In this document: piece by piece, positions 1,569 through 27,433 of the stretch
How positions within the stretch are numbered: the first letter of the stretch is position 1
Layout: each line of letters begins with the position of its first letter
Virus record (IMG/VR): IMGVR_UViG_3300032249_000812
Coordinates: 1 to 30,577 of that record
DNA length: 30,577 nucleotides
Reading direction: 5' to 3' (one strand)
Origin: a virus
Program-made: the position numbers and the translations under genes
Notes under the pieces: model-generated
The model's database searches: none
Told to the model about the DNA's origin: nothing
What the model saw: the letters and a program-made list of their open reading frames with translations, nothing else

Positions 1569-1688
1569 TTATCGGTATCCGCCGGGGTAGTCAGGGAAAT
1601 CGTCGTCGTCGTCGTCCTTGGCGCATTTGAGGACGAGGACAAAAGCCGCGATCATCAAAAGCGATCCGAAGATGGCAGAGGGGATCAT
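1569..1688 (-). CDS. 39-aa single-pass membrane peptide of the lysis cassette
   Basis: A small gene whose ATG (1688) overlaps the endolysin stop as ATGA; the next gene starts four bases after its stop. It begins MIPSAIFGSLL, continues as one hydrophobic segment (about residues 4-20), then K-C-A-K, six aspartates in a row, and a short tail rich in P, G and Y. A membrane anchor with a strongly acidic extension, placed right after holin and endolysin, suggests a lysis accessory such as a second holin, an antiholin or a spanin-like element. No lipobox with the expected spacing is seen. The overlaps and the clean transmembrane segment support it being real. Confidence 0.6.
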   Translation of the reverse strand: MIPSAIFGSLLMIAAFVLVLKCAKDDDDDDFPDYPGGYR

Positions 1689-2389
1689 GCTTCGTTCTGG
1701 GATGTTTTGCCGTCACTGGCGACGGTTTGGAGCGCATCGCTGCCAATATCAAAACCTTTGGGCCATCTGTAGCCAACCACTCGGGAAGTGTCGAAAGGCT
1801 TGACGTTGACGGCATCGCCCTGGTTGCCACCAAGGACCATGATATTGCCATACTGATCTTTCCCGGTCACAAATCCAACGTGGCCGGATCCACCGTTTCT
1901 CGATCCGCGCCAGAAAACAACAATCGCGCCGGCGATGGGTCCACATGGCTGGCCCCACTTTTCAAAGCTTCGCGCCATTCCGCTGCGAGTTCCGGCAATG
2001 CCGCAATCCTCAAGCATTGCGTTGACATAACCGGCGCACCAAGGAGTCTCGTCGTCAGTAAAGAATAGCTTGGCAAGCTGCCAGTAAGACAAGATGCGCT
2101 TGCTATGCTGCCTACCAGCAATCTCGGAAACGCCGATTTCCTGACGCGCTCGGCGTAGCCAGATTGGCTCTCCTGCGACCTTTGGAGGTGCGACCGATGC
2201 TTGAGGCTCTTTGCGTAGCTCGGCTAGCGTAATCGGCCCAATGTAGTCGCGAGGGGAAAGCGCCTTGGAGACCTTAAAAGCGATGATCGCCGCTCGGGTT
2301 TTCGGCCCGATCATTCCATCCAATTCACCAGGCTCAAAGCCATGGGCCTTGAGGCGCGTTTGGATTTCGGCGATTTCGGTTTTCGTCAT
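1685..2389 (-). CDS. Endolysin: peptidoglycan-binding domain plus CHAP/NlpC-like peptidase
   Basis: 234 residues with no signal peptide, as expected for a holin-released endolysin. Residues about 3-60 form a peptidoglycan-binding domain (IQTRLKAHGF, DGMIGPKTRAAI). Residues about 75-210 form a cysteine peptidase or amidase domain of the TIGR02594/CHAP type, with probable catalytic C118 in TPWCAGYVN and H170 in GHVGFV, followed by GGNQGDAVNV. The family cuts peptide or amide bonds in the cell wall. The gene is coupled to the holin upstream and to the membrane peptide downstream by ATGA overlaps, so the three form one lysis cassette. Confidence 0.88.
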   Translation of the reverse strand: MTKTEIAEIQTRLKAHGFEPGELDGMIGPKTRAAIIAFKVSKALSPRDYIGPITLAELRKEPQASVAPPKVAGEPIWLRRARQEIGVSEIAGRQHSKRILSYWQLAKLFFTDDETPWCAGYVNAMLEDCGIAGTRSGMARSFEKWGQPCGPIAGAIVVFWRGSRNGGSGHVGFVTGKDQYGNIMVLGGNQGDAVNVKPFDTSRVVGYRWPKGFDIGSDALQTVASDGKTSQNEA

Positions 2390-2562
2390 TTGGTCCGCTT
2401 ACGTTTTTCGAGCGCCGACATCACAATCCCTACAAGCGCGACCGCTGCGCCAATACCGGTCTGGAGATCGGCCTGCGAGACGATACCGGCTCCGGTAGCG
2501 TAACCACCTGCGATGGTCAGACCGTGACGGAGGAGGAGGCCAAGGAGTAGTTTCGTATCCAT
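2386..2562 (-). CDS. Holin-like small membrane protein
   Basis: 58 residues from the ATG at 2562; an in-frame GTG at 2577 lies inside the conserved promoter-like motif and is less likely. The protein has two hydrophobic stretches (about residues 4-26 and 34-50) and ends with a highly charged EKRKRTK tail, the usual form of a class II-type holin. The stop overlaps the endolysin start (ATGA). It is the first gene after the late motif on this strand, so it leads the lysis operon. The call rests on size, topology and position rather than a recognised family. Confidence 0.7.
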   Translation of the reverse strand: MDTKLLLGLLLRHGLTIAGGYATGAGIVSQADLQTGIGAAVALVGIVMSALEKRKRTK

Positions 2563-2575
2563 GTCGGAGGAGTCC

Positions 2576-2597
2576 ACAAAACAAACGAAAAACGCAA
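2576..2597 (-). promoter_or_regulatory. Late promoter-like motif, copy 1 (lysis operon)
   Basis: On the minus strand TTG, 12 bases, then GTTTTGT, with the holin ATG 13 bases further on. Its TTG is one base away from the TTG of the divergent copy at 2599. It shares the exact spacer with five other copies. Confidence 0.7.
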
Positions 2598-2598
2598 G

Positions 2599-2620
2599 TT
2601 GAAATTCCGCTATGTTTTGT
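2599..2620 (+). promoter_or_regulatory. Late promoter-like motif, copy 2 (tape measure operon)
   Basis: TTG (2599-2601), 12 bases, GTTTTGT (2614-2620), then 14 bases to the tape measure ATG at 2635. Back to back with copy 1, separated by one base. Confidence 0.7.
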
Positions 2621-2634
2621 AGAGGGGTTTGACC

Positions 2635-4416
2635 ATGGCCGCAAAAGCAGACCTAAAGACAACGATCTCGGCAGATATGACGGGATTCGCTGCGACGATG
2701 CGACGAGCTGGAGGGCTGGCGAAATCAACAGGCACTGGCATAGGAAAATCTTTGGGTAGCGCCAGCAGTGCAATCGGCGGCCTTGTTAAGAGCGCAGGCG
2801 CTGCAACAATCAAGCTTGCTGCGCTTGGAGTCGCGGCGGCTGGCGTGGGACTTGTCGCCGGAATCAAAAACGCCGCTGATTTGGGCGGTAAGCTTGCTGA
2901 TCTTTCGGCCAGAACAGGTATCGCAGCCGGAAAATTGGCCGTGATGGGAAGGGCTTTTGAGGATAACGGCGTCTCAGCCGACAAGATTGGCGGCGTGATC
3001 AACAAACTCCAAAAGACCATTACCGATTTTGGGAATGGATCCGCCAGCGCATCAAAGCCATTTGCCGCTTTAGGTATCAAGTTTGAAGACATCTCAAGGC
3101 TTGATCCTGCTGCACAATTTGAACTCATTCAGAGCAAGATTTCCGCAATTCAAGATCCAGCGCAGAGGGCTGCGCTCGCAATGCAGATTTTTGGAAAGTC
3201 AGGCGGCGAGCTTCTCACTCTCTTTGCAGACGGCGAGGCGTTTGCTAATGCCGGCGCTTTCCTCGGGACTCAAGCGGAAATCCTTGATCGCTCCGCAGGA
3301 TTGTTTGATTCGATCTCCGACAAGATGGCGAGGATTCCCGAAAAGCTCCAAGGATTCTTCGTTGGGTTCCTTGAGCCAATTGGCGGTGACATTGATGCGA
3401 TCTTGACCAAGTTTGAAGCTTTTGACTTTGCGGCACTTGGGCTAAAGCTCGGCGAAATGTTTGCCGGAACCATTGACAACATTAAGGGAATGTTCCAAGC
3501 ACTCAATCTTGGAGAGATATTTGAATACGCGGCCCTGAGTCTGAAACAGGGCTTTATTGATGCAGTGAATTATCTCGCCAAAGGAACCTCAGCAGTCATC
3601 GACTCGATGAAAAGCGGCGAGCTTGGATCTGTTTTTGAAACCGTCGGAATGCGATTGCAGCAAGCTCTGCTGCTAGCTGGCGCAGATTTGCTTGAAAGCC
3701 TGGAGCCGATCCTCGGAGAGAGGTCGAAAGTCGCGGCAGACTACAATCGCGCGACAGCAGATTTGATTGAAGCGCAACTGGAGGCCAAAGATGCCGAAAA
3801 GGCCAACCAGCCTTCGTTCTTGGAGTCCTTTGTTGAAGCATTTAAAAGCGCTGGCGATGTGATGAAGATGCCAGAAGAGGACGCTAAACGGTTTAGCGAG
3901 CTAGGCGACCGAATCAAGGAGGCTGCGGATCAATTTGCAAAAACACGCGAAGAAGAAAAGACCAAGCGCCAGCAGGAGGCGGACGCTAAAAACAGAGCCG
4001 CGAAGGGATCCCCCGCAGCCACTGCTCCCAACACCTATAGCGGCCCGCAGATCGACGGCACAACGTATGGCCCTCCAGATCCACGCTTTGAGCAATTCGG
4101 CCCTCCAAGATCGCTCATGTCATCGCGTAATGGAAGGCTTTTTGGTGAGCCTGGTCAAATGCTCGGAGGCACAAACGCATTTTCGCAGTCAGCCCGCTAT
4201 GGCGTGGACGAAAACGGCGTGCCAAAAACTGGACGTTTTGCTGGAGTCGCGGGAGTCGGTGGCCCAGGTTTTACTACCGGCCTAGGCGAAAAGCGTCGCC
4301 TACGCACCAGCGCTGACGACAAGGAAGGCAAAAAGAACCTAACGCTCCAAGAGAAGCAAGTCTCCTCCCTTGAATCCATCGAAAGCAAGATTGGTCAAGC
4401 TCTCACCGTAAACTGA
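2635..4416 (+). CDS. Tail tape measure protein
   Basis: 593 residues from the ATG at 2635; an in-frame TTG at 2629 is less likely. The N-terminus is an Ala/Gly/Lys-rich helical region with a hydrophobic stretch (about 45-80, including LAALGVAAAGVGLVAG). It is followed by long amphipathic helices with the usual tape-measure pattern (DLGGKLADLSARTG, FGKSGGELL), more hydrophobic helices at about 270-330, a charged helical stretch at 370-460, and a Pro/Gly-rich C-terminal region. Tape measure proteins fill the tail tube lumen and set tail length. At the usual scale of roughly 1.5 angstroms per residue this would mean a tail somewhat under 100 nm. It is the first gene of the plus-strand tail operon and is separated from the chaperone genes at 17 kb, an unusual arrangement. 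Confidence 0.85.
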   Translation: MAAKADLKTTISADMTGFAATMRRAGGLAKSTGTGIGKSLGSASSAIGGLVKSAGAATIKLAALGVAAAGVGLVAGIKNAADLGGKLADLSARTGIAAGKLAVMGRAFEDNGVSADKIGGVINKLQKTITDFGNGSASASKPFAALGIKFEDISRLDPAAQFELIQSKISAIQDPAQRAALAMQIFGKSGGELLTLFADGEAFANAGAFLGTQAEILDRSAGLFDSISDKMARIPEKLQGFFVGFLEPIGGDIDAILTKFEAFDFAALGLKLGEMFAGTIDNIKGMFQALNLGEIFEYAALSLKQGFIDAVNYLAKGTSAVIDSMKSGELGSVFETVGMRLQQALLLAGADLLESLEPILGERSKVAADYNRATADLIEAQLEAKDAEKANQPSFLESFVEAFKSAGDVMKMPEEDAKRFSELGDRIKEAADQFAKTREEEKTKRQQEADAKNRAAKGSPAATAPNTYSGPQIDGTTYGPPDPRFEQFGPPRSLMSSRNGRLFGEPGQMLGGTNAFSQSARYGVDENGVPKTGRFAGVAGVGGPGFTTGLGEKRRLRTSADDKEGKKNLTLQEKQVSSLESIESKIGQALTVN

Positions 4417-8601: not shown

Positions 8602-9017
8602 GCTGTGAGATTTTGGATGCCTGCTTTCATGGCCGTTTTGGTTGCGGCAAAGACCGTTGCTTGTTCTGCGGTGTAAGAAATTGGCGCTTCCGCGTATTCG
8701 ATCATGGCGATTGCGGCCTCATCATCGCCCTCGTCGAGGAGCGTATTGGCGACTTCAAACTTTTCGCGGAATGGGCCGCGAATGTAGGCTGGCAAGGCTT
8801 GCCATGCGCCGTAAAGAGCGGAGCGCCCTGCCGCCCGTGCGTCGATGTCTGCTTGTCTTGCGGTTATTACGGATTCTGCAAATGCGCGTTGTGCCTCGAT
8901 CTCTTGAAGCGTCGGCACGCTGCCCCCATCTCCAGCGCTGATCTCGTCTCCGTAGACGCGCCATCCGCCTCGATCTGGCCAAGCAATTGAAAGAATGTCG
9001 TGAATGGTCGCTATCAT
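8598..9017 (-). CDS. Small protein between two fibre genes (possible fibre chaperone)
   Basis: 139 residues. The N-terminus reads MIATIHDILSIAWPDRGGWR; the middle is a long alanine-rich helix (EIEAQRAFAESVITARQADI) followed by helical segments with EGDDEAAIAMIEYAEAP. It overlaps both the upstream spike gene and the downstream fibre gene by four bases, so the three are co-translated. Size, helical content and position between fibre genes are like fibre assembly chaperones or adaptor proteins. No specific family is recognised. Confidence 0.65.
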   Translation of the reverse strand: MIATIHDILSIAWPDRGGWRVYGDEISAGDGGSVPTLQEIEAQRAFAESVITARQADIDARAAGRSALYGAWQALPAYIRGPFREKFEVANTLLDEGDDEAAIAMIEYAEAPISYTAEQATVFAATKTAMKAGIQNLTA

Positions 9018-11167
9018 GGGATTCTGAGAACCTGCATCGTGAAGCCTTTATAAAGCGTGAATGTTGAGCCGTTTACTTCTCCGCCGACTTGAAGCTGAAC
9101 AGTGCCTGGAGTGGATCCGTTGCACACGTAAATCTGAATCATAATGGGCATCGCGCTATTTATCAGCGTTCCGCCGCCTTGAGTCGCGGTTGTGCTGAAC
9201 GCAGTCATTCCGGCCTCGGTTCTGACTGCGGTGGCCGAAGTGAAAGAGAAGTCGCCGATCTGAACGTCGGTAGGCGAGGCTGGTCCAGTAAAAGCATATT
9301 TGAAACCAGAGCCAGAAGTATTCGTTGCCCAAAAGCCGCGAAATATAGCAGAGACTTTTTCATTGGCGGCAATGGTAAAGGACATCCCAGTAACGTTAAC
9401 GACAGCGCCTGTCGTGTCCGTGATGTTGCTGGTCGTAACAGCGGAAGGCGTGATAAAATCTCCGATCACGCATTCCTCGAAATTGCCAGCCCCTGCAGTT
9501 TTTCTGCCAATGATCTTCCCTTTTGCTGAGGCGGTAACAAGGTTGCTAAATTGTATCGTGTTTGCATTTACGCTCCAGTTAGTTCCGCTGGAGGCTACCG
9601 TGATGCCTCCTTTATTACCATCGGAAAGTTTATCCGGCGAAAACACCCCGGCCTCAAGGATTGCGTTTTTATAAATGGTCGAACCTTGAAGCGCGCCCGT
9701 CACTATGTTTGTAAACTCTGCGCCAGATGATGTTGCGTCGGCTCCTGTAGTTCCACCGTTACATCCAGCTCCCGCCGTTAAGGTTAAAACGCTAATATAA
9801 CAGTTTGAGAAGTAGTGATTTGCAATATTCCCACCGTTATATGTATCCGATCCAGCCGACGTTCCATCTCCTCCCTCAATAGCAATGTTTAGGGTGATGC
9901 TTTTGTCGGAGCTTAGATTTAAATCTGGGGCCGTAAAACCATTCTGCTCTACGCCGTCTTCGCCGCGCCATGTTAAAGTTAAGACAGAGCCGCTAATTCC
10001 AGCACCTTGGAAATAAACCGGGGCAGAATAACCTTCGCTTCCAAATGCTGCATCAATGGAAAATGAACCGGGGCCAAAGTCGAAGCGAGTCGCTCCAGCA
10101 TTCCATGCCGCTTGGGCAGTCGAGTATGGCAAGGAAGGGTTTCCGATAACTGCGGTGGCATTGTTTCCGCCCGTGCGAACGTAGGCAAAGCCAGTGCCGG
10201 TAATCGACGCTCCACCGCCCGAGGGAGTCGCGAACGTAGGCGCGGCAGATGCTCCGTTGCTTTTGAGGTATGTTCCATCAGCTCCGAGTGCAAGCTCAAC
10301 AAGTTGGCCGCTTCCGTTGGAGTGGAAAACCTTCCAGCTCCCGGAAGTGTGGTCGCTGGTCGATGTCATCGCGTGCGAGCGATCATGGAACCGCGCATCG
10401 TTGCCTTGTGCGAATTGACCGGATCCAGTTCCGAATGCGCCAGCTTCAAGGACTCCGCTGGTTCCGGTTTTGATTGGCAGGCCTGAGGTCGAGCCGATTG
10501 CGCCAGCGTTGGAAATATTCCCGTGGACGTGGCTTGTGGGCGTTCTTGCGTCGGTCAGGCGGGAATCGTTGGTGGCAACGTAGTCGGTTCCGGCAACGGC
10601 AACGTCCAGCGTATTGCTTGCGGCCTTTAGGATACCCGTTAAACCACTGGTTGCGGTGTTGGTGGTAAGCGTCGGTTCCGCAGCTCCGAGGACTGCCACC
10701 GATACTGAAACGGCTCCGCTTGTAATGGCCACATTAATGGCTGGCGATGAAACAACGGCAGACGATTCTGCAATGTCGGAACCTGCCGCCACCCAATCGG
10801 CTTGGCCTTGAAGGCGCAATAGAACGTCGCTTCCTTCGCTGGCGGAAATATCCACCCAGTATTCAGTCTCACCCTTGGCTTGGACATCTTCCAACGTCCA
10901 GCCGGAAGCGAAGGCCGGAACGGTCGCGGCATTGGTCGCAACGTTAAGAGTGATGACCTGCCCCGCGATGGTCAGATTTGCCTCGCCGGAATCCGTCCCG
11001 AAAACGCGCCTGACAGTTCCGCTTCTTGCCCTCATTCCAAACGTCACAAATTTGCCCGTCATCGAAAACTCCGCGCCGATAGTCAGGCTCAATCGGAACG
11101 GTGCGCCCTCCGCAAAATAGAATTTAGGCAGATCGGCAACGCCAGAGATGACGGGAGAGTCGGGCAT
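9014..11167 (-). CDS. Large tail fibre/spike protein, probable receptor binding
   Basis: 717 residues from the ATG at 11167, chosen because the late motif lies just upstream. The N-terminal 150 residues form a beta domain (FYFAEGAPFRLSLTIG) resembling the anchoring domain of baseplate or fibre proteins. The middle carries shaft-like segments (AGTDYVATNDSRLTDARTPT, GADGTYLKSNG). Residues about 335-510 are rich in G, N, S and T and look like a right-handed beta-helix. The last 130 residues form a compact beta-sandwich-like tip (GFWATNTSGSG, TVQLQVGGEVNG). It is the first gene of the minus fibre operon and probably decides host range. Confidence 0.78.
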   Translation of the reverse strand: MPDSPVISGVADLPKFYFAEGAPFRLSLTIGAEFSMTGKFVTFGMRARSGTVRRVFGTDSGEANLTIAGQVITLNVATNAATVPAFASGWTLEDVQAKGETEYWVDISASEGSDVLLRLQGQADWVAAGSDIAESSAVVSSPAINVAITSGAVSVSVAVLGAAEPTLTTNTATSGLTGILKAASNTLDVAVAGTDYVATNDSRLTDARTPTSHVHGNISNAGAIGSTSGLPIKTGTSGVLEAGAFGTGSGQFAQGNDARFHDRSHAMTSTSDHTSGSWKVFHSNGSGQLVELALGADGTYLKSNGASAAPTFATPSGGGASITGTGFAYVRTGGNNATAVIGNPSLPYSTAQAAWNAGATRFDFGPGSFSIDAAFGSEGYSAPVYFQGAGISGSVLTLTWRGEDGVEQNGFTAPDLNLSSDKSITLNIAIEGGDGTSAGSDTYNGGNIANHYFSNCYISVLTLTAGAGCNGGTTGADATSSGAEFTNIVTGALQGSTIYKNAILEAGVFSPDKLSDGNKGGITVASSGTNWSVNANTIQFSNLVTASAKGKIIGRKTAGAGNFEECVIGDFITPSAVTTSNITDTTGAVVNVTGMSFTIAANEKVSAIFRGFWATNTSGSGFKYAFTGPASPTDVQIGDFSFTSATAVRTEAGMTAFSTTATQGGGTLINSAMPIMIQIYVCNGSTPGTVQLQVGGEVNGSTFTLYKGFTMQVLRIP

Positions 11168-11179
11168 GTCGATGACTCC

Positions 11180-11201
11180 ACAAAACAACGGGGATTTTCA
11201 A
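11180..11201 (-). promoter_or_regulatory. Late promoter-like motif, copy 3 (fibre operon)
   Basis: On the minus strand TTG, 12 bases, GTTTTGT, then 12 bases to the spike ATG at 11167. Back to back with copy 4, one base between the two TTG elements. Confidence 0.7.
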
Positions 11202-11202
11202 C

Positions 11203-11224
11203 TTGATTTTGCGCGGCGTTTTGT
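11203..11224 (+). promoter_or_regulatory. Late promoter-like motif, copy 4 (packaging operon)
   Basis: TTG (11203-11205), 12 bases, GTTTTGT (11218-11224), then 13 bases (ending CCGAC) to an ATG at 11238. This fixes the start of the following gene and gives a 70-base divergent region like the 72-base one at 2563-2634. Confidence 0.7.
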
Positions 11225-11237
11225 CGAGGCGTCCGAC

Positions 11238-12209
11238 ATGCTCAAATTGCGCTACGATGACAAGGGACAGGTGCGGGGATTGCCTGATGCGATTCGCCCC
11301 GGCGACAGCCTCAGCGTCGAGCTAATCGCGGATCATTTGGAGATTGCGAGCAGTGACACCTTGGGCCTTTCCCTTGCGCTGGAAAAGCCCGTGCCGATTG
11401 CCTCTGGCGATTGGTCGATCACCTGGGGCGCTTCCACCGTTGAGCTTCCCGCTGCCGGGATTGACGCGCATTTGCTAGGCCTCGCGCTCAATCGACTTTC
11501 TGCCATCGTTTCCGCTGGCGGTGTGGATGTATCTGGGCAAAACGGACTTTTCACGGTCACGTTTCGCAGCAATGGAGCGAGAGCAGACTTTACGATTGCC
11601 CATTCCGCCTTTGGAACGATGACGAATCGTGCGCTCACCTTGATCGCTGGCGGGGCTTCCAACGTAGAGACGGTCGAGATTGACTTGACGCTACAGACGC
11701 TGGTGGCGGTGACTAGCGCATCGAACATTAGTGAGGCCGCCGTTACCGTGGCAAACGTGGCGACCGGGAGCGTTAGCGTGGCGCAGAATGACCGCATCAC
11801 CATTTCGAGGATGCCTGATGCTGGCAAGTTCCAGATCAGGACCGCGACCGATACCGGCACGATGTGGCTTTCGGCGGATGTTTCGACGTATCAAATTGAA
11901 ACGGCTCTGGAGGACATCGAGCCGGGAGAGTTCTTGGTAGCGCGAGATGCGACCGGAGAGACAATCAAGATTGAGGTCAAGCGCACCGCCGTGGGAGTGA
12001 ATCCTGCGATCACGGTTTCCGAGACGTTTATTGGCCCCATCGGCGTGACGATGACGCTCGACACTTCCAAGGTGCTGCGATTGCTCGACGCGGCTAGCGT
12101 GGCGCTTCCAACTGCGGCGCTTCTGACCTTTTCGCGAGGCACGGAGACGCAATTTTCGCAACTGGTGACACTGGCTCCGGCATTGTTGAGCCACGGGCAA
12201 CCTGTTTGA
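11238..12209 (+). CDS. Unknown structural protein before the large terminase
   Basis: 323 residues from the ATG at 11238. Earlier in-frame ATGs at 11166 and 11172 would read through both late motifs and overlap the divergent spike start codon, so I reject them. The protein begins MLKLRYDDKGQVRGLPDA and is beta-rich throughout, with Val/Thr/Ala-rich segments (VTSASNISEAAVTVANVATG) and no membrane segment. It ends 11 bases before the terminase. Composition suggests a virion protein such as a tail or decoration component, but there is no recognised family. Confidence 0.7.
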   Translation: MLKLRYDDKGQVRGLPDAIRPGDSLSVELIADHLEIASSDTLGLSLALEKPVPIASGDWSITWGASTVELPAAGIDAHLLGLALNRLSAIVSAGGVDVSGQNGLFTVTFRSNGARADFTIAHSAFGTMTNRALTLIAGGASNVETVEIDLTLQTLVAVTSASNISEAAVTVANVATGSVSVAQNDRITISRMPDAGKFQIRTATDTGTMWLSADVSTYQIETALEDIEPGEFLVARDATGETIKIEVKRTAVGVNPAITVSETFIGPIGVTMTLDTSKVLRLLDAASVALPTAALLTFSRGTETQFSQLVTLAPALLSHGQPV

Positions 12210-12220
12210 CGGCTTGAAAC

Positions 12221-14104
12221 ATGAACGAGGCGGCACTTGATCGGTATTACCGGGGAACTCTCAGGCACTTAGAACGGGCATTCAGATTTCAGCGGACAAT
12301 GACCGCGCCGGAATGGTCCGAGAAGGTCAGGCGCATGGAGGGCGGAAGGCGCTTCCGCTTCGACTTCGCTCCGTATCAGCGAGAGATGATGGAAGCGCCC
12401 TACGATCCGCGCGTGCAGATGACGGTTTACATGCTCGCCAGCCGGATGGGAAAGACCGAGGTGGTCATGAACCAAATAGGTCATAGTATCGCCGAGGCTC
12501 CCCGCCGCGTCCTCGTGATGTATCCGACGATTAGCCAGACTGAGAAATGGTCGAAGGAGACACTCATGGGCGAGCTGGTTAATCCGACGCCTGATCTGGC
12601 CTCACTGATCGGCGACGATTCTGGCCGGCGCAAAAGCGGCAATACAATCCTCCACAAGCTTTTCCCTGGTGGCCTTGTGAATGCTTTCGGGTCCAACGCT
12701 CCAGGTGAGATGCGGAGGGCAAAGGGCAACTTTCTCTTTGCGGACGAGATCGACGCCATTGAATCGACCGAGAGCGACGAAGGCGACCCGCTCGAAATCT
12801 TCTGGGTTCGCGGATCCGAATATGCGGACACGATCAAGATCGCCGCCAGCTATCCAAGCGTGAAGGGCAAGAGCAAGATTGAGGCGCTGATGCTCCAATC
12901 TGATTGGCGAGTCTGGATCGCGCCCTGTCCGCATTGCGCCAAGGAGTTTGTCCTGCACCGCCGCCAGCTCAAATATGACCGAGGCAAGCCCGAGGATGCA
13001 TGGATTGAGTGCCCCGAAAGCGAATGTCGAATTACCGATGCAGAGCGCATGGAGATGATTCGGAACGGCAGGTGGCAGGCAACGCGCCCGTTTAATGGCA
13101 TTGCTGGCTTTCACGGTTCGCGCATGATGTCGCCACATCCGCCGCAAAAGGGCTTTTCGAGTCATCTGCACTGGGCTGCGGTCGAGGAGTTGAAAATCGA
13201 GGCGGCAGACAATCGAGAGAAGGCGAAGCGGGTTTTGATTAATACGTTTGACGCTGAGACTTACCAAGCGCCCGAGGAGGAAATGCCGGATCCGGTGGGC
13301 CTTGCTCAGGAGGCTTACGATTATTTGGAGCGCGTCACTGAAAACCAGTTCAAGATTCCCGCCGGCGTGCTGGTTGTCACCGGAGGTTGCGATGTTCAAG
13401 GCGACCGTTTGGAATTTGAGTTTGTGGGCCACGGAGTCAACGGCCAGACTTGGGGGCTGGGGTATCACATTTTGAGCGGGGGCACGATGGAGCCAGAGGT
13501 TTGGCAAAAGCTTGATGCGCTGCTTCAGACGGAGTTCCTCCACCCTTGCGGCAAGGTGCTGCGAGTCGCTTCCGTATTCATTGACTCTAAATACCGGCAG
13601 GCCCAAGTGCTAGCCTTTACCAAGGTCCGACAGGCTCGCGGCGTCTTTGCGATCTTCGGCTCGACCGTCTTGGGCAAGCCGATTGTTTCTCAACCCAAGA
13701 GGGAAAAGCGCGGGACGTTCTTTGAAATTGGCACGCACGAATGCAAGAGCATGATCTACCAAAATGCGGCCCTCCGCCAAGATCGCAAATCTTCCATCTA
13801 TCCGCATAATTACATGCATTTCCCCAGCGGCCATGGGTATACACCCGAATATTTCCAGCGCCTGCTGATCGAGAAGGTGATGCTGAAGAAAGGACAAGAC
13901 GGGAGCTTTTATGAGTTCTTCGACAAGAAGGACAAGCGCGACCGCAACGAACCGCTCGACGTTCGCGTCTACAACATCGCCGCAGCCAAAAAGCTCGACA
14001 TTGCCTTTGCCACGATTGCCAAGAAATATGCCGAATATGCGGCCAAGAACGTGCCTGATCGAGGTAAAGAGCGCGAATATACACTCGATTTCATCGCTGA
14101 TTGA
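12221..14104 (+). CDS. terL: Terminase large subunit, GpA family
   Basis: 627 residues, the usual size for lambda gpA-like terminases, the ATP-driven motor and nuclease that packages DNA into the prohead. Visible features: Walker A ASRMGKTE (73-80), Walker B FLFADEID (171-178), a zinc-binding pair C236-P-H-C239 with C264 and C269 inserted after the ATPase, and a nuclease domain with acidic residues in GGCDVQGDRLE (D391) and VFIDSKYR (D455). It lies upstream of a gpW-like protein and the portal as in lambda, but its small subunit is encoded far away on the opposite strand. A hairpin resembling a terminator follows the stop. Confidence 0.95.
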   Translation: MNEAALDRYYRGTLRHLERAFRFQRTMTAPEWSEKVRRMEGGRRFRFDFAPYQREMMEAPYDPRVQMTVYMLASRMGKTEVVMNQIGHSIAEAPRRVLVMYPTISQTEKWSKETLMGELVNPTPDLASLIGDDSGRRKSGNTILHKLFPGGLVNAFGSNAPGEMRRAKGNFLFADEIDAIESTESDEGDPLEIFWVRGSEYADTIKIAASYPSVKGKSKIEALMLQSDWRVWIAPCPHCAKEFVLHRRQLKYDRGKPEDAWIECPESECRITDAERMEMIRNGRWQATRPFNGIAGFHGSRMMSPHPPQKGFSSHLHWAAVEELKIEAADNREKAKRVLINTFDAETYQAPEEEMPDPVGLAQEAYDYLERVTENQFKIPAGVLVVTGGCDVQGDRLEFEFVGHGVNGQTWGLGYHILSGGTMEPEVWQKLDALLQTEFLHPCGKVLRVASVFIDSKYRQAQVLAFTKVRQARGVFAIFGSTVLGKPIVSQPKREKRGTFFEIGTHECKSMIYQNAALRQDRKSSIYPHNYMHFPSGHGYTPEYFQRLLIEKVMLKKGQDGSFYEFFDKKDKRDRNEPLDVRVYNIAAAKKLDIAFATIAKKYAEYAAKNVPDRGKEREYTLDFIAD

Positions 14105-14107
14105 CCA

Positions 14108-14134
14108 AAAGCCCTTGAATTTGGGCTTTGTTTT
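14108..14134 (+). terminator. Hairpin plus T-rich tail after terL
   Basis: AAAGCCC (14108-14114) and GGGCTTT (14123-14129) form a perfect seven-base stem with an eight-base loop, followed by GTTTT. The loop begins with the TTG of the late motif, so terminator and promoter elements overlap in this 44-base gap. Confidence 0.5.
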
Positions 14135-14136
14135 GT
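14115..14136 (+). promoter_or_regulatory. Late promoter-like motif, copy 5 (gpW-like gene and portal)
   Basis: TTG (14115-14117), 12 bases, GTTTTGT (14130-14136), 12 bases, then the ATG at 14149. The bases after the box (CGAAGCATCGAC) closely match copies 3 and 4. Confidence 0.62.
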
Positions 14137-20293: not shown

Positions 20294-22285
20294 TCAGACC
20301 GTCTCCGCGTTGGAAAGGTTGATGGTTTGATAGATCGGAACACCTTGATACTCTTCCGGCATCGGAGCGGGAGCGCCGATGGGCGAGTAGGTGGTGCGGC
20401 TCACTTGAAGCTGCTCGACGGAGCGAGGCGTTGCGAAGATCGCATTCGGGTTCATTCCGAGTTCGCGAGCTTGGCGGAATGCTTTTGCAAGGAGAGCGTC
20501 GGTGAGGCCCTTGCCGGAATCGCTTGCGATGTTTTTGATGCGGATCGCACGGTTCTTGTTCGCGAGGCGAGGAGCAACGCGGCCCGAGATCCAATTTTGA
20601 AGGCAGCGGAGGCTGTTGTTGTTGGCGTCGTCAACCGTCTCTTCGGTCCAGTCTTCACCAAACAGGAGGGTATTGTCGTTGCCGTAGACGTGGTCGCATT
20701 CGCCTTGGAGAAGCTCCATGATCCAGACCGAGGTTTTGGCCGTGGAACCGGTAGCATCGACAACGTGAGTCGCTGCGCTGTTCGACTGAGCGAGGAAGCC
20801 GGGAGCGGCCTTCGCGTCAACGCTGGCTTGAGTCGTGCCAGCATACCATTGCTGAAATGCGATGTGGCTCAAAACTGCCTTGGTCACGCTGCGGGCTTCG
20901 GCGGTCAGAACGCGAGCGGGATCCTTGCTGGCGTTAAGCACGCCTTGGATGTCCACGTTGATAAACTGCTCAATGATCGAGGTTTGGAAGATTCGCGAGG
21001 CAAAGGTGCCCTTTTTGGCGCTCGTTCCTTCGTTGGCGTTACGATATCCAACGGAGGGGTTGCCGGTCTGGATCGAGAGCGTCACGGTGTCACCGGAAAT
21101 GGTATCAACCGGGAAGACTGCGATTTCGGGATACATCGCAACGACTTCCTCGACGATCGGCATACCGATTCCTTCGTCGATGGCGAGCTTGTCAACGAGC
21201 GTAACGGATCCGGTCAAGGAGCGGTGAAAGGGGGTCTGGCTTCCGCCGATGTAGTTGCGCGAAAACTCGCGAGCTTCGGAGTAGGTCGGAACAACGATGT
21301 TGCGGCCACGGTCACCCAAGGCACGCTTGGCGTTCTCGGCCCAGGTGCTTTGGAGGTATTGGCGAGTGCCCTTCTTAACGGGTTCGCTGAGGACTTCAAT
21401 GCGTCCGGCGGAGTAAGCGGGGTTTTCGGCTTTCATATTATCGAGGAGTTGGCGCTTGTAATCGTCAATGCTCAGGCCGCTTTCGATGGCCTTCGTGATT
21501 TCAGCTTGGTTGCGGCGGAATCCATTACCGCATTCGGTAATTTCAGCGGCACGCTTGCGATCTTCGGCGATGGCGCGAGCTGCTTCTTCCTTCGCGAGTT
21601 GGGCGATTTGGAGCTTGTTGAGTTCCCGTTCCACCTCAGCGGCGGCGCGGACTTCGTTTTTGGTTTCCGCCGGAGCGATCGCAGCGGGAGCCGTTGCGTT
21701 GTCGGCGCGTTCTTGGTCGTGGTCTTGGTTGTCCATGGTAATGGAGGTTGAAAGTTCAGCGGCTCGTCGGCCAAAGATGGTAGATGCGTCACGGACTCCA
21801 GCGCCGTCGTCGGCAGGAATGGAAACGAGGGAGATCTCGAAAGGCTCCCAATCCATCACACGGTAGATCTCTTTTCCGGTCATTTTGTCACGCTTTTCCA
21901 TGACGAGCGCATGGACGCGATAGCCAACGGAAATTTTGGAGCGGATCCCGTCTTTAACGTCCTGAAAGATTTCCTCGCCCTTTGCAGAGCGGGAAAAGCG
22001 AACAGTTGCAGCTCCAGCTTTGCCGTCGATGCGAGCGGATTCGATCACTCCCACTTGTTCCCGGGGATCGTGATCGAGCAGCAAGGGCGCGGAGTTGTTG
22101 AGTCGCTTGAGGCGCACGGACTTTGAACCGTGATCGAGAATTTCGACACCCCAAGAGCGTTCGACTTGATCGGTTTCGGTCGAGAAAACAACATCCACCG
22201 TGCGCTCGTCCTCGTTGATCGAGGAACGCGACAGGTCGAAGGAACGGACCTGCGGGGAGAATTGTTTTTGTGTGCCGCGCGACAT
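20294..22285 (-). CDS. Prohead protease-major capsid protein fusion (HK97 type)
   Basis: 663 residues from the ATG at 22285; an in-frame GTG at 22300 lies inside the late motif. Residues about 15-175 are an HK97-family (U35) prohead protease with H72 in LLLDHDPREQ, S119 in SKISVGYRV, and the DWEPFEISLVSIPAD block. Residues about 205-250 form a charged coiled coil (EVRAAAEVERELNKLQIAQL) acting as a scaffold or delta domain. Residues about 300-663 are the coat protein, with IVEEVVAMYPEIAVFPVDTI and a C-terminal MPEEYQGVPIYQT. The protease would cut itself free and remove the scaffold during maturation. It leads the head/tail operon. A known but less common fusion. Confidence 0.9.
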   Translation of the reverse strand: MSRGTQKQFSPQVRSFDLSRSSINEDERTVDVVFSTETDQVERSWGVEILDHGSKSVRLKRLNNSAPLLLDHDPREQVGVIESARIDGKAGAATVRFSRSAKGEEIFQDVKDGIRSKISVGYRVHALVMEKRDKMTGKEIYRVMDWEPFEISLVSIPADDGAGVRDASTIFGRRAAELSTSITMDNQDHDQERADNATAPAAIAPAETKNEVRAAAEVERELNKLQIAQLAKEEAARAIAEDRKRAAEITECGNGFRRNQAEITKAIESGLSIDDYKRQLLDNMKAENPAYSAGRIEVLSEPVKKGTRQYLQSTWAENAKRALGDRGRNIVVPTYSEAREFSRNYIGGSQTPFHRSLTGSVTLVDKLAIDEGIGMPIVEEVVAMYPEIAVFPVDTISGDTVTLSIQTGNPSVGYRNANEGTSAKKGTFASRIFQTSIIEQFINVDIQGVLNASKDPARVLTAEARSVTKAVLSHIAFQQWYAGTTQASVDAKAAPGFLAQSNSAATHVVDATGSTAKTSVWIMELLQGECDHVYGNDNTLLFGEDWTEETVDDANNNSLRCLQNWISGRVAPRLANKNRAIRIKNIASDSGKGLTDALLAKAFRQARELGMNPNAIFATPRSVEQLQVSRTTYSPIGAPAPMPEEYQGVPIYQTINLSNAETV

Positions 22286-22298
22286 TGCGAGAGACACC

Positions 22299-22320
22299 AC
22301 AAAACAAAAAAGAAACGCAA
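22299..22320 (-). promoter_or_regulatory. Late promoter-like motif, copy 6 (capsid operon)
   Basis: On the minus strand TTG, 12 bases, GTTTTGT, then 13 bases to the capsid fusion ATG. No divergent partner: the bases beyond the TTG do not contain a second copy. Confidence 0.7.
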
Positions 22321-22472: not shown

Positions 22473-22838
22473 TCAACAAGCGTGTAATCTGGTGTCCTCT
22501 TGGGGGCTTGTTGCGACTAGGAAAAGCGGTCGCGACGACCCTGAGTGGGGTCTAAAGCTCTGGAAGAACCTAAGAATCAACAACGCAGCCCTCCTGCATT
22601 CGGGCGAGCAATAAACCTGCGTGCCGCCGTCAGGCATGAACCATTCATGACATTTTATCCAATGGCAAAACTTAATCCGCTTTGGTGCTTGGATGGCCCT
22701 GTTTGCCAATGGTTGAAATCCCTTCGGCACGCCATGATGCGCCGCCATTTGCCCCGTCATCTTTGCAGGGCAAGATTTTACCGATTCCGCCGATTCAGCG
22801 TCAATCCTATTCGATTCGGGATCGCGTGCCTCACTCAT
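22473..22838 (-). CDS. Small zinc-binding protein
   Basis: 121 residues. The middle contains FCHWIKCHEWFMPDGGTQVY followed by CSPECRR, giving C-x4-C and C-x3-C pairs 14 residues apart, a treble-clef or zinc-ribbon-like pattern common in small phage early proteins. The N-terminus is acidic and Ser-rich; the C-terminus is Ser/Pro-rich and poorly conserved looking. It starts four bases after the preceding gene. Function unknown, possibly nucleic acid binding. Confidence 0.58.
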   Translation of the reverse strand: MSEARDPESNRIDAESAESVKSCPAKMTGQMAAHHGVPKGFQPLANRAIQAPKRIKFCHWIKCHEWFMPDGGTQVYCSPECRRAALLILRFFQSFRPHSGSSRPLFLVATSPQEDTRLHAC

Positions 22839-23127: not shown

Positions 23128-23421
23128 TTAAGCTGCCATCATCAGCAGCAGGAGAATTATCGCGCCGATGATCAGCACAAGGAAGCATCCAGTGCAGCCG
23201 CAGCATCCTGCCAAGTGCCGGGGCGCGTCCGGCGAATGGTTCAAGGCATAGCTAGCGCCTCGGCTTTTAAATTGTCCCTTCCCGGTCGCTCGATGTCCAC
23301 GCCCGTTGTGACGAGTGGGAGTTCGCCTAGACGAGGAGCCGTCAACCTCGCTGGCTATCGTGCGTGACGGCAGGTGGCTAGTCCTGCGCCTTTGCCCTTT
23401 GGGGTTTCTAAGATTGGTCAT
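23128..23421 (-). CDS. Tail-anchored Cys-rich membrane protein
   Basis: 97 residues from the ATG at 23421, which overlaps the upstream gene by 14 bases. The first 70 residues are basic and rich in R, S, T, G and H. They are followed by CCGCTGC and one hydrophobic segment at the very end (FLVLIIGAIILLLLMMAA). The topology is a C-terminal tail anchor with a soluble basic domain in the cytoplasm and four cysteines at the membrane border. Function unknown; early phage membrane proteins often affect the host envelope or exclude other phages. Confidence 0.55.
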   Translation of the reverse strand: MTNLRNPKGQRRRTSHLPSRTIASEVDGSSSRRTPTRHNGRGHRATGKGQFKSRGASYALNHSPDAPRHLAGCCGCTGCFLVLIIGAIILLLLMMAA

Positions 23422-23764
23422 AACGCTTCCGTTTGTCAAATGCCACCCAATAACCTTTCCGCCCCTCGAGGACGAGCTGCACGCGGATCGGTGATTTCTC
23501 AATGGCTAGTTGGAATTGTAAGCTGCGCAAGAACTGGTGGACCTCACATCCTGCGGCAAAGCCTAGAATGTCGGTCAGGTGCTTTGCTGCGATCCTACCT
23601 CGGCCAAGTGCGTGGCGAAGGAAGGCAATGCGGCGAGCGTTGCGGATGTAGCATCTCCTGCCGTGAGAATGCACCTCGCCCCCGTTGATCGGTAGCACTA
23701 CCGGCGACTCCCACCCGTCTAGGATGGCATCATCCAGGTCGGTGTGGTAGGTCTTGTCTGTCAT
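23408..23764 (-). CDS. Small protein with winged-helix-like C-terminal part
   Basis: 118 residues from the ATG at 23764. N-terminus MTDKTYHTDLDDAILDGWES; the second half (ARRIAFLRHALGRGRIAAKH, LTDILGFAAGCEVHQFLRSL, then GRKGYWVAFD) resembles a winged helix with helix-helix-wing order. DNA binding is possible. It lies in the early block after the probable ssDNA-binding gene. No family recognised. Confidence 0.58.
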   Translation of the reverse strand: MTDKTYHTDLDDAILDGWESPVVLPINGGEVHSHGRRCYIRNARRIAFLRHALGRGRIAAKHLTDILGFAAGCEVHQFLRSLQFQLAIEKSPIRVQLVLEGRKGYWVAFDKRKRYDQS

Positions 23765-27390: not shown

Positions 27391-27404
27391 AGGCTCAACA
27401 AAAT

Positions 27405-27433
27405 GATATGGATCCGCAACTAGAAAAAGCCAA
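27405..27433 (-). promoter_or_regulatory. Possible sigma70-like promoter for the HNH/replication operon
   Basis: On the minus strand TTGGCT (complement of 27428-27433), 17 bases, CATATC (complement of 27405-27410). The spacing is ideal, but the -10 box is weak. It lies between the terminator of the methyltransferase fusion and the leader ORF. Confidence 0.3.

Follow-up and report, generated by a model that had tools for sequence, protein, structure and literature searches.

In P2 and its relatives, the promoters of the divergent P-Q and O-S operons share the sequence TGT-N12-ACA, and a position common to PP and PO has been stated for the P2-like phage Smp131 (PMC3931495). The middle promoters of T4 combine a MotA box, WWWTGCTTtA, located at about -30, with a sigma70 -10 element (PMC2988021). 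The bidirectional promoters of E. coli, in turn, consist of symmetric DNA to which the polymerase binds either way, one binding event excluding the other, with -10 elements that overlap and starts that commonly lie 10-23 bp apart (PMC12825309).

The locus considered here is a gap between two divergent operons of a virus record that was analyzed whole (30,577 bases, hereafter the window). It resembles the PP/PO region of P2 in that it belongs to a tailed phage, in that one symmetric DNA element lies between divergent late operons, and in that its motif recurs at other late promoters; however, the motif itself is different and is asymmetric within each arm. With the T4 middle promoters it would share a phage-specific box near -30 that replaces the host -35 element and a host polymerase which, as we infer, has been redirected, whereas T4 keeps a good TATAAT -10 element that is absent here, and the geometry fits only loosely. 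Unlike the E. coli bidirectional promoters, it is the upstream elements that abut in our case, and the putative starts lie ~59-72 bp apart. The Verrucomicrobia phage P8625 encodes tape-measure and metallophosphoesterase proteins that are distant relatives of those of the window (24-25% identity), but its annotated genes are all on one strand and the motif does not rise above background in it. By the features tested, the motif falls outside the P2, E. coli bidirectional and T4 middle classes; shared symmetric late elements were already known from P2, and what this locus would contribute, in our judgment, is a phage-specific middle/late promoter in a fixed back-to-back arrangement.

Results

The divergent intergenic gap at 2563..2634 measures exactly 72 bp, being bounded by the ATG of a minus-strand gene at 2562 and that of a plus-strand gene at 2635, and it separates the lysis operon (minus strand) from the tape-measure operon (plus strand). 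As written on the plus strand, positions 2576-2597 read ACAAAAC-N12-CAA (ACAAAACAAACGAAAAACGCAA); read in the direction of the lysis operon, this is the putative promoter arm of that operon (2576..2597, minus strand, TTGCGTTTTTCGTTTGTTTTGT, 32.4 bits). The putative promoter arm of the tape-measure operon, TTG-N12-GTTTTGT, occupies 2599..2620 on the plus strand (TTGAAATTCCGCTATGTTTTGT, 32.5 bits), and a single central base (G, 2598..2598) forms the middle of CAA-N-TTG, a spacing that is invariant in relatives. The sequence-only reading that had pointed to this locus, placing two motifs one base apart within a gap of 72 bp, was right to the base in both sequence and coordinates; its term "pseudo-palindrome" suits the outer heptamers and the central CAA-N-TTG but does not extend to the 12-bp spacers, which are not complementary to each other.

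On the minus-strand side, the first gene of the lysis operon (2386..2562) encodes, by translation, a small hydrophobic holin-like protein of 58 aa which returned no match in a family search and which would be the holin, and the endolysin gene (1685..2389, minus strand) combines peptidoglycan-binding and CHAP domains (Pfam PF05257, PF01471). On the plus-strand side, the tape-measure protein (2635..4416), first in its operon, matches the tail length tape measure families of PHROGs.

The motif is by no means confined to this gap. TTG-N12-GTTTTGT occurs in six exact copies in the window, against none for the same pattern read backwards as a control; with at most one mismatch allowed there are 10 matches (6 of them exact) vs 2.3 expected, a number that none of 100 shuffles reached. 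A chance palindrome is ruled out by these shuffles, by the backwards control and by the conservation described below. Four of the six exact copies form back-to-back pairs, at 2576-2620 and at 11180-11224, in each of which one base separates the arms; the other two stand alone. In the second pair, the minus-strand arm (11180..11201, TTGAAAATCCCCGTTGTTTTGT, 35.6 bits) would serve the 9014-11167 operon (minus strand) and the plus-strand arm (11203..11224, TTGATTTTGCGCGGCGTTTTGT, 30.6 bits) the 11238-14104 operon (plus strand), which includes TerL. One single copy lies upstream of the head-tail joining and portal genes (14115..14136, plus strand, TTGAATTTGGGCTTTGTTTTGT, 33.3 bits) and the other upstream of a protease-major capsid fusion gene (22299..22320, minus strand, TTGCGTTTCTTTTTTGTTTTGT, 34.2 bits). 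A seventh copy, in which the last block reads ATTTTGT with A for G, is found in the early region (27398..27419, minus strand, TTGCGGATCCATATCATTTTGT, 26.5 bits); it is kept in relatives, where it precedes the start codon of an early-region gene by ~40 bp. All seven copies are upstream of, and point at, genes or operons, and the six exact ones cover every late operon. The second pair, both singles, the seventh copy and the block NGAGNC that follows the copies had all been absent from the earlier reading, whose label of a "late" motif is slightly too narrow in view of the seventh.

A weight matrix built from the seven site classes gave scores of 26-36 bits to the seven sites and 11 to the next best position, with no intermediates in the window; every class was recovered when left out, including that of the early-region copy with its own class held out.

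Two further observations concern the neighborhood of the single copies. At 14108-14136 (plus strand), a 7-bp stem (AAAGCCC/GGGCTTT) ending in GTTTTGT shares bases with the single site (fold z -2.9), and a terminator-like hairpin of the TerL gene may here be combined with the next promoter. At 20294-22285 (minus strand), the major capsid protein and an S78-type prohead protease are fused in one reading frame of 663 aa.

The complementarity of the outer heptamers, together with folding that for some strands is slightly more stable than in shuffled sequence (z -2.2 to -2.9), could be taken to mean that the element is an RNA hairpin, a terminator or a site of DNA recombination or packaging rather than a promoter. 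This explanation is extremely improbable in our view: the single copies have no facing partner, a gene or operon follows every one of the seven copies, and the plus strand of the 2563 gap folds no better than shuffles (z -0.2).

When positions are weighted by site class, conservation is found for A/T at -8 to -6, TTG[A/C] at 1-4, T at 8, TTY at 13-15, R at 16, TTTTGT at 17-22 and N-GAG-N-C at 23-28. The full motif spans ~30 bp, the conserved NGAGNC following closely on each copy. The ATG comes 34-36 bp after the start of TTG at the six late sites. Since GAGNC is likewise conserved at the early-region copy, from which the ATG is ~40 bp away in relatives, and since a Shine-Dalgarno sequence is missing from most genes of the window, the NGAGNC block is probably part of the element and not a ribosome site. 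The scarcity of Shine-Dalgarno sequences also hints at a host that makes little use of them.

When 2.9 million viral contigs were scanned for the full pair, 42 stretches were recovered, and their flanks identify them as the two gaps already described, in close relatives whose TerL is mostly 91-100% identical; complete and near-complete relatives have the same sites in the same order. The spacing is 1 bp in all 31 distinct gap sequences, and throughout the unfiltered list of pairs as well, while the whole gap measures 70-72 bp and the ATG is set 1-2 bases nearer or farther from one sequence to the next; for the 2563-2634 gap in particular, the range of 70-72 bp holds in 15 distinct relatives. 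One variant has a 10-bp spacer in one arm. Other pair spacings, scanned from 0 to 30 bp, returned only unrelated, mostly A+T-rich contigs that carry no further copies beyond chance.

The constancy of the CAA-N-TTG center, on which the sequence-only reading had staked its proposal, is therefore borne out by the 31 gap sequences, and it extends to a more distant relative (L087, TerL 69% identical) that keeps CAACTTG. There, TTG-N12-TTTTTG[T/C] or a near variant is found at three promoters, and the three best matrix matches of the contig are the three promoters expected. In a relative whose MCP is 54% identical, the best matrix match falls exactly upstream of MCP, and another (L264, MCP 59%) has TTG-N10-GTTTTGT, with a shorter spacer. 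In a further relative (L081, TerL 73%), sigma70-like sequences replace the motif in the same gap, and the motif system is hence not universal among near relatives. At 1840-1900 of that contig, sigma70-like -35/-10 pairs face both ways (TTGCAA-N16-TATAAT), each ending 6 bp before an ATG, which suggests that transcripts are leaderless there and that the promoter type has switched from one relative to another.

As regards the genomes themselves, relatives are arranged as if circularly permuted, at ~35 kb, and our record apparently lacks ~4.4 kb, including RecT or exonuclease genes, at the junction of its end with its start. The record IMGVR_UViG_3300034116_001288 (61,242 bp) is longer than the other genomes and perhaps consists of two phages joined; its first 20 kb have a single DNA match to the window (67%), in the endolysin region. 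Neither near-identical DNA among the phage records searched nor related DNA among plasmids was found, and a genome scan in search of the host returned TerL matches of only 26-33%, in varied bacteria.

The sites were compared with the promoter classes already described. In the case of sigma70 (-35 TTGACA, -10 TATAAT, 16-18 bp apart), matches in the window are no commoner than in shuffles; TTG is present at our sites, but the hexamer at the right distance from it is NGAGNC. That these might be ordinary promoters of the host primary sigma factor, with their spacer sequence shared by happenstance, is suggested by the distance from TTG to ATG, which equals that found for the sigma70-like promoters that L081 has in this gap; we nonetheless consider it very unlikely, as this group has no TATAAT-like hexamer rightly placed and RTTTTGT, the block conserved best, plays no part in sigma70 promoters. 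The -10 element of T4 late promoters (TATAAATA) has no match in the window, and there is no TATAAT at the sites to match a T4-type middle promoter, in which a good one follows the MotA box at 12 +/- 1 bp; no relative of AsiA or MotA was identified.

The Ogr site of P2, TGT-N12-ACA, has 3 matches in the window vs 3.75 expected, none of them in these gaps, and the Ogr-like pattern CX2CX22CX4C was seen in none of the proteins examined, the window being some 4.4 kb short of the whole genome. The cysteines of a 121-aa protein (22473-22838) follow another pattern, and this protein has a full-length match in no relative. No member of the OmpR-type DNA-binding family was found in the window, and we found no publication on GTTTTGT phage promoters. 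Of what is expected of a bidirectional promoter, a recognition sequence for each direction at a conserved spacing is present.

The contiguous conservation of 20-30 bp across the presumed start, and the high uniformity of the copies, would also be natural for promoters of a T7-like single-subunit phage RNA polymerase that initiates just after GTTTTGT. Most large ORFs, however, already have other matches, the genome is only ~35 kb, and no PF00940 match was obtained in ten records of the group (a search that was silent on the control genomes too), all of which makes this proposal very unlikely indeed.

Discussion

Given the position and orientation of the copies and the presence of one copy per late operon, we consider it probable, if far from certain, that each arm is a copy of a phage-specific middle/late promoter, which stands singly at three sites and in abutting divergent pairs at two. 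Such a promoter would comprise some 30 bp, in which an A/T tract precedes TTG[A/C] and a spacer of invariably 12 bp, with TTY as its last bases, leads on to RTTTTGT-N-GAG-N-C. Each late operon would be provided with one copy, and divergent late operons with two, their TTG elements set exactly one base apart. As a search for a phage RNA polymerase, silent on its controls too, returned none, the promoter is most likely read by host RNA polymerase that an early phage factor redirects.

The TTG would probably act in the role of a -35 element, with transcripts starting at the start codon or a few bases before it. A register of this kind, with starts at the ATG, is what the sequences of L081 and L264 suggest, although the -10 element that it implies reads NGAGNC, which is not AT-rich and speaks against the reading we favor. 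It is also possible that TTTTGT serves as the -10 element and leaves a leader of ~5-7 bases; in that register, however, only 10 bp separate the TTG hexamer from TTTTGT, a distance bridgeable by no standard sigma factor.

A more delicate question is whether the pair constitutes one element or two. The earlier proposal that a single symmetric element drives two operons agrees with what we observe insofar as the element is conserved, oriented and placed at the head of divergent operons; an arm stands alone at three sites, however, and the pair may equally be two abutting promoters. Because each arm would work as a unit at the single sites, the pair should amount to at least two promoters placed back to back. 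A single symmetric element read by a dimer is nevertheless possible, and the fact that two unrelated gaps both keep to a spacing of 1 bp suggests that more than chance constrains it.

One explicit form of this idea is that the central 17 bp (AAWNKCAA-N-TTGMNWWT) form a shared operator, a dyad for a dimeric phage activator that serves both promoters at once, and the dyad of that dimer would explain why the spacing is fixed at 1 bp. That the spacing varies neither between two non-orthologous gaps nor in L087 is in keeping with such an operator, as is the precedent of P2-like phages, in which one TGT-N12-ACA is common to PP and PO (PMC3931495). The single sites are suggestive as well: a mirror half-site fits best at the 1-bp geometry at MCP (p=0.043) and at the early site (p=0.062), and both retain C at -3 and T at -4. 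Yet the single sites have lost the TT of the mirror TTG, the 14115 site has no significant mirror half-site in most variants, and the combined support comes to only ~p=0.03 (Fisher combination); moreover, the shared spacing could have been inherited by common descent or copied from one gap to the other. We therefore rate the shared operator as possible but rather doubtful.

Still less probable, and in our estimate unlikely, is that a phage-encoded initiation factor of an undescribed class makes host polymerase use a promoter of ~30 bp that has no TATAAT-like -10 element, with a dimer at a fixed CAA-N-TTG center firing both divergent operons at once. As to the early phage factor of the favored reading, a speculative candidate is an early-region protein of 118 aa (23408..23764, minus strand) with a possible winged helix. 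It is present in all relatives whose fetched sequence covers the region, and a search of the collection returned close relatives only. Its structural model has low confidence (pLDDT 43) and a winged-helix-like order of elements, Foldseek listed several winged-helix regulators, none with E below 0.3, and a sequence search of the PDB gave nothing significant; the protein may be regarded as a lead only.

If the arms are indeed separate copies of a phage-specific promoter, as we favor, the separation of 1 bp would bring the upstream contacts of the two promoters into abutment. Polymerases aimed both ways would then overlap at the center, with the consequence that their occupancy would be mutually exclusive or staggered and the output of the two operons balanced.

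These findings provide a complete, if putative, promoter map consisting of seven sites with one motif and two back-to-back pairs, and do so for a phage group that has no close relative in the phage records searched. The motif points to a factor with an unusual sequence preference. In particular, the spacing between divergent promoters, held at one base in two separate gaps, offers a case in which a shared activator can be weighed against competition between polymerases.
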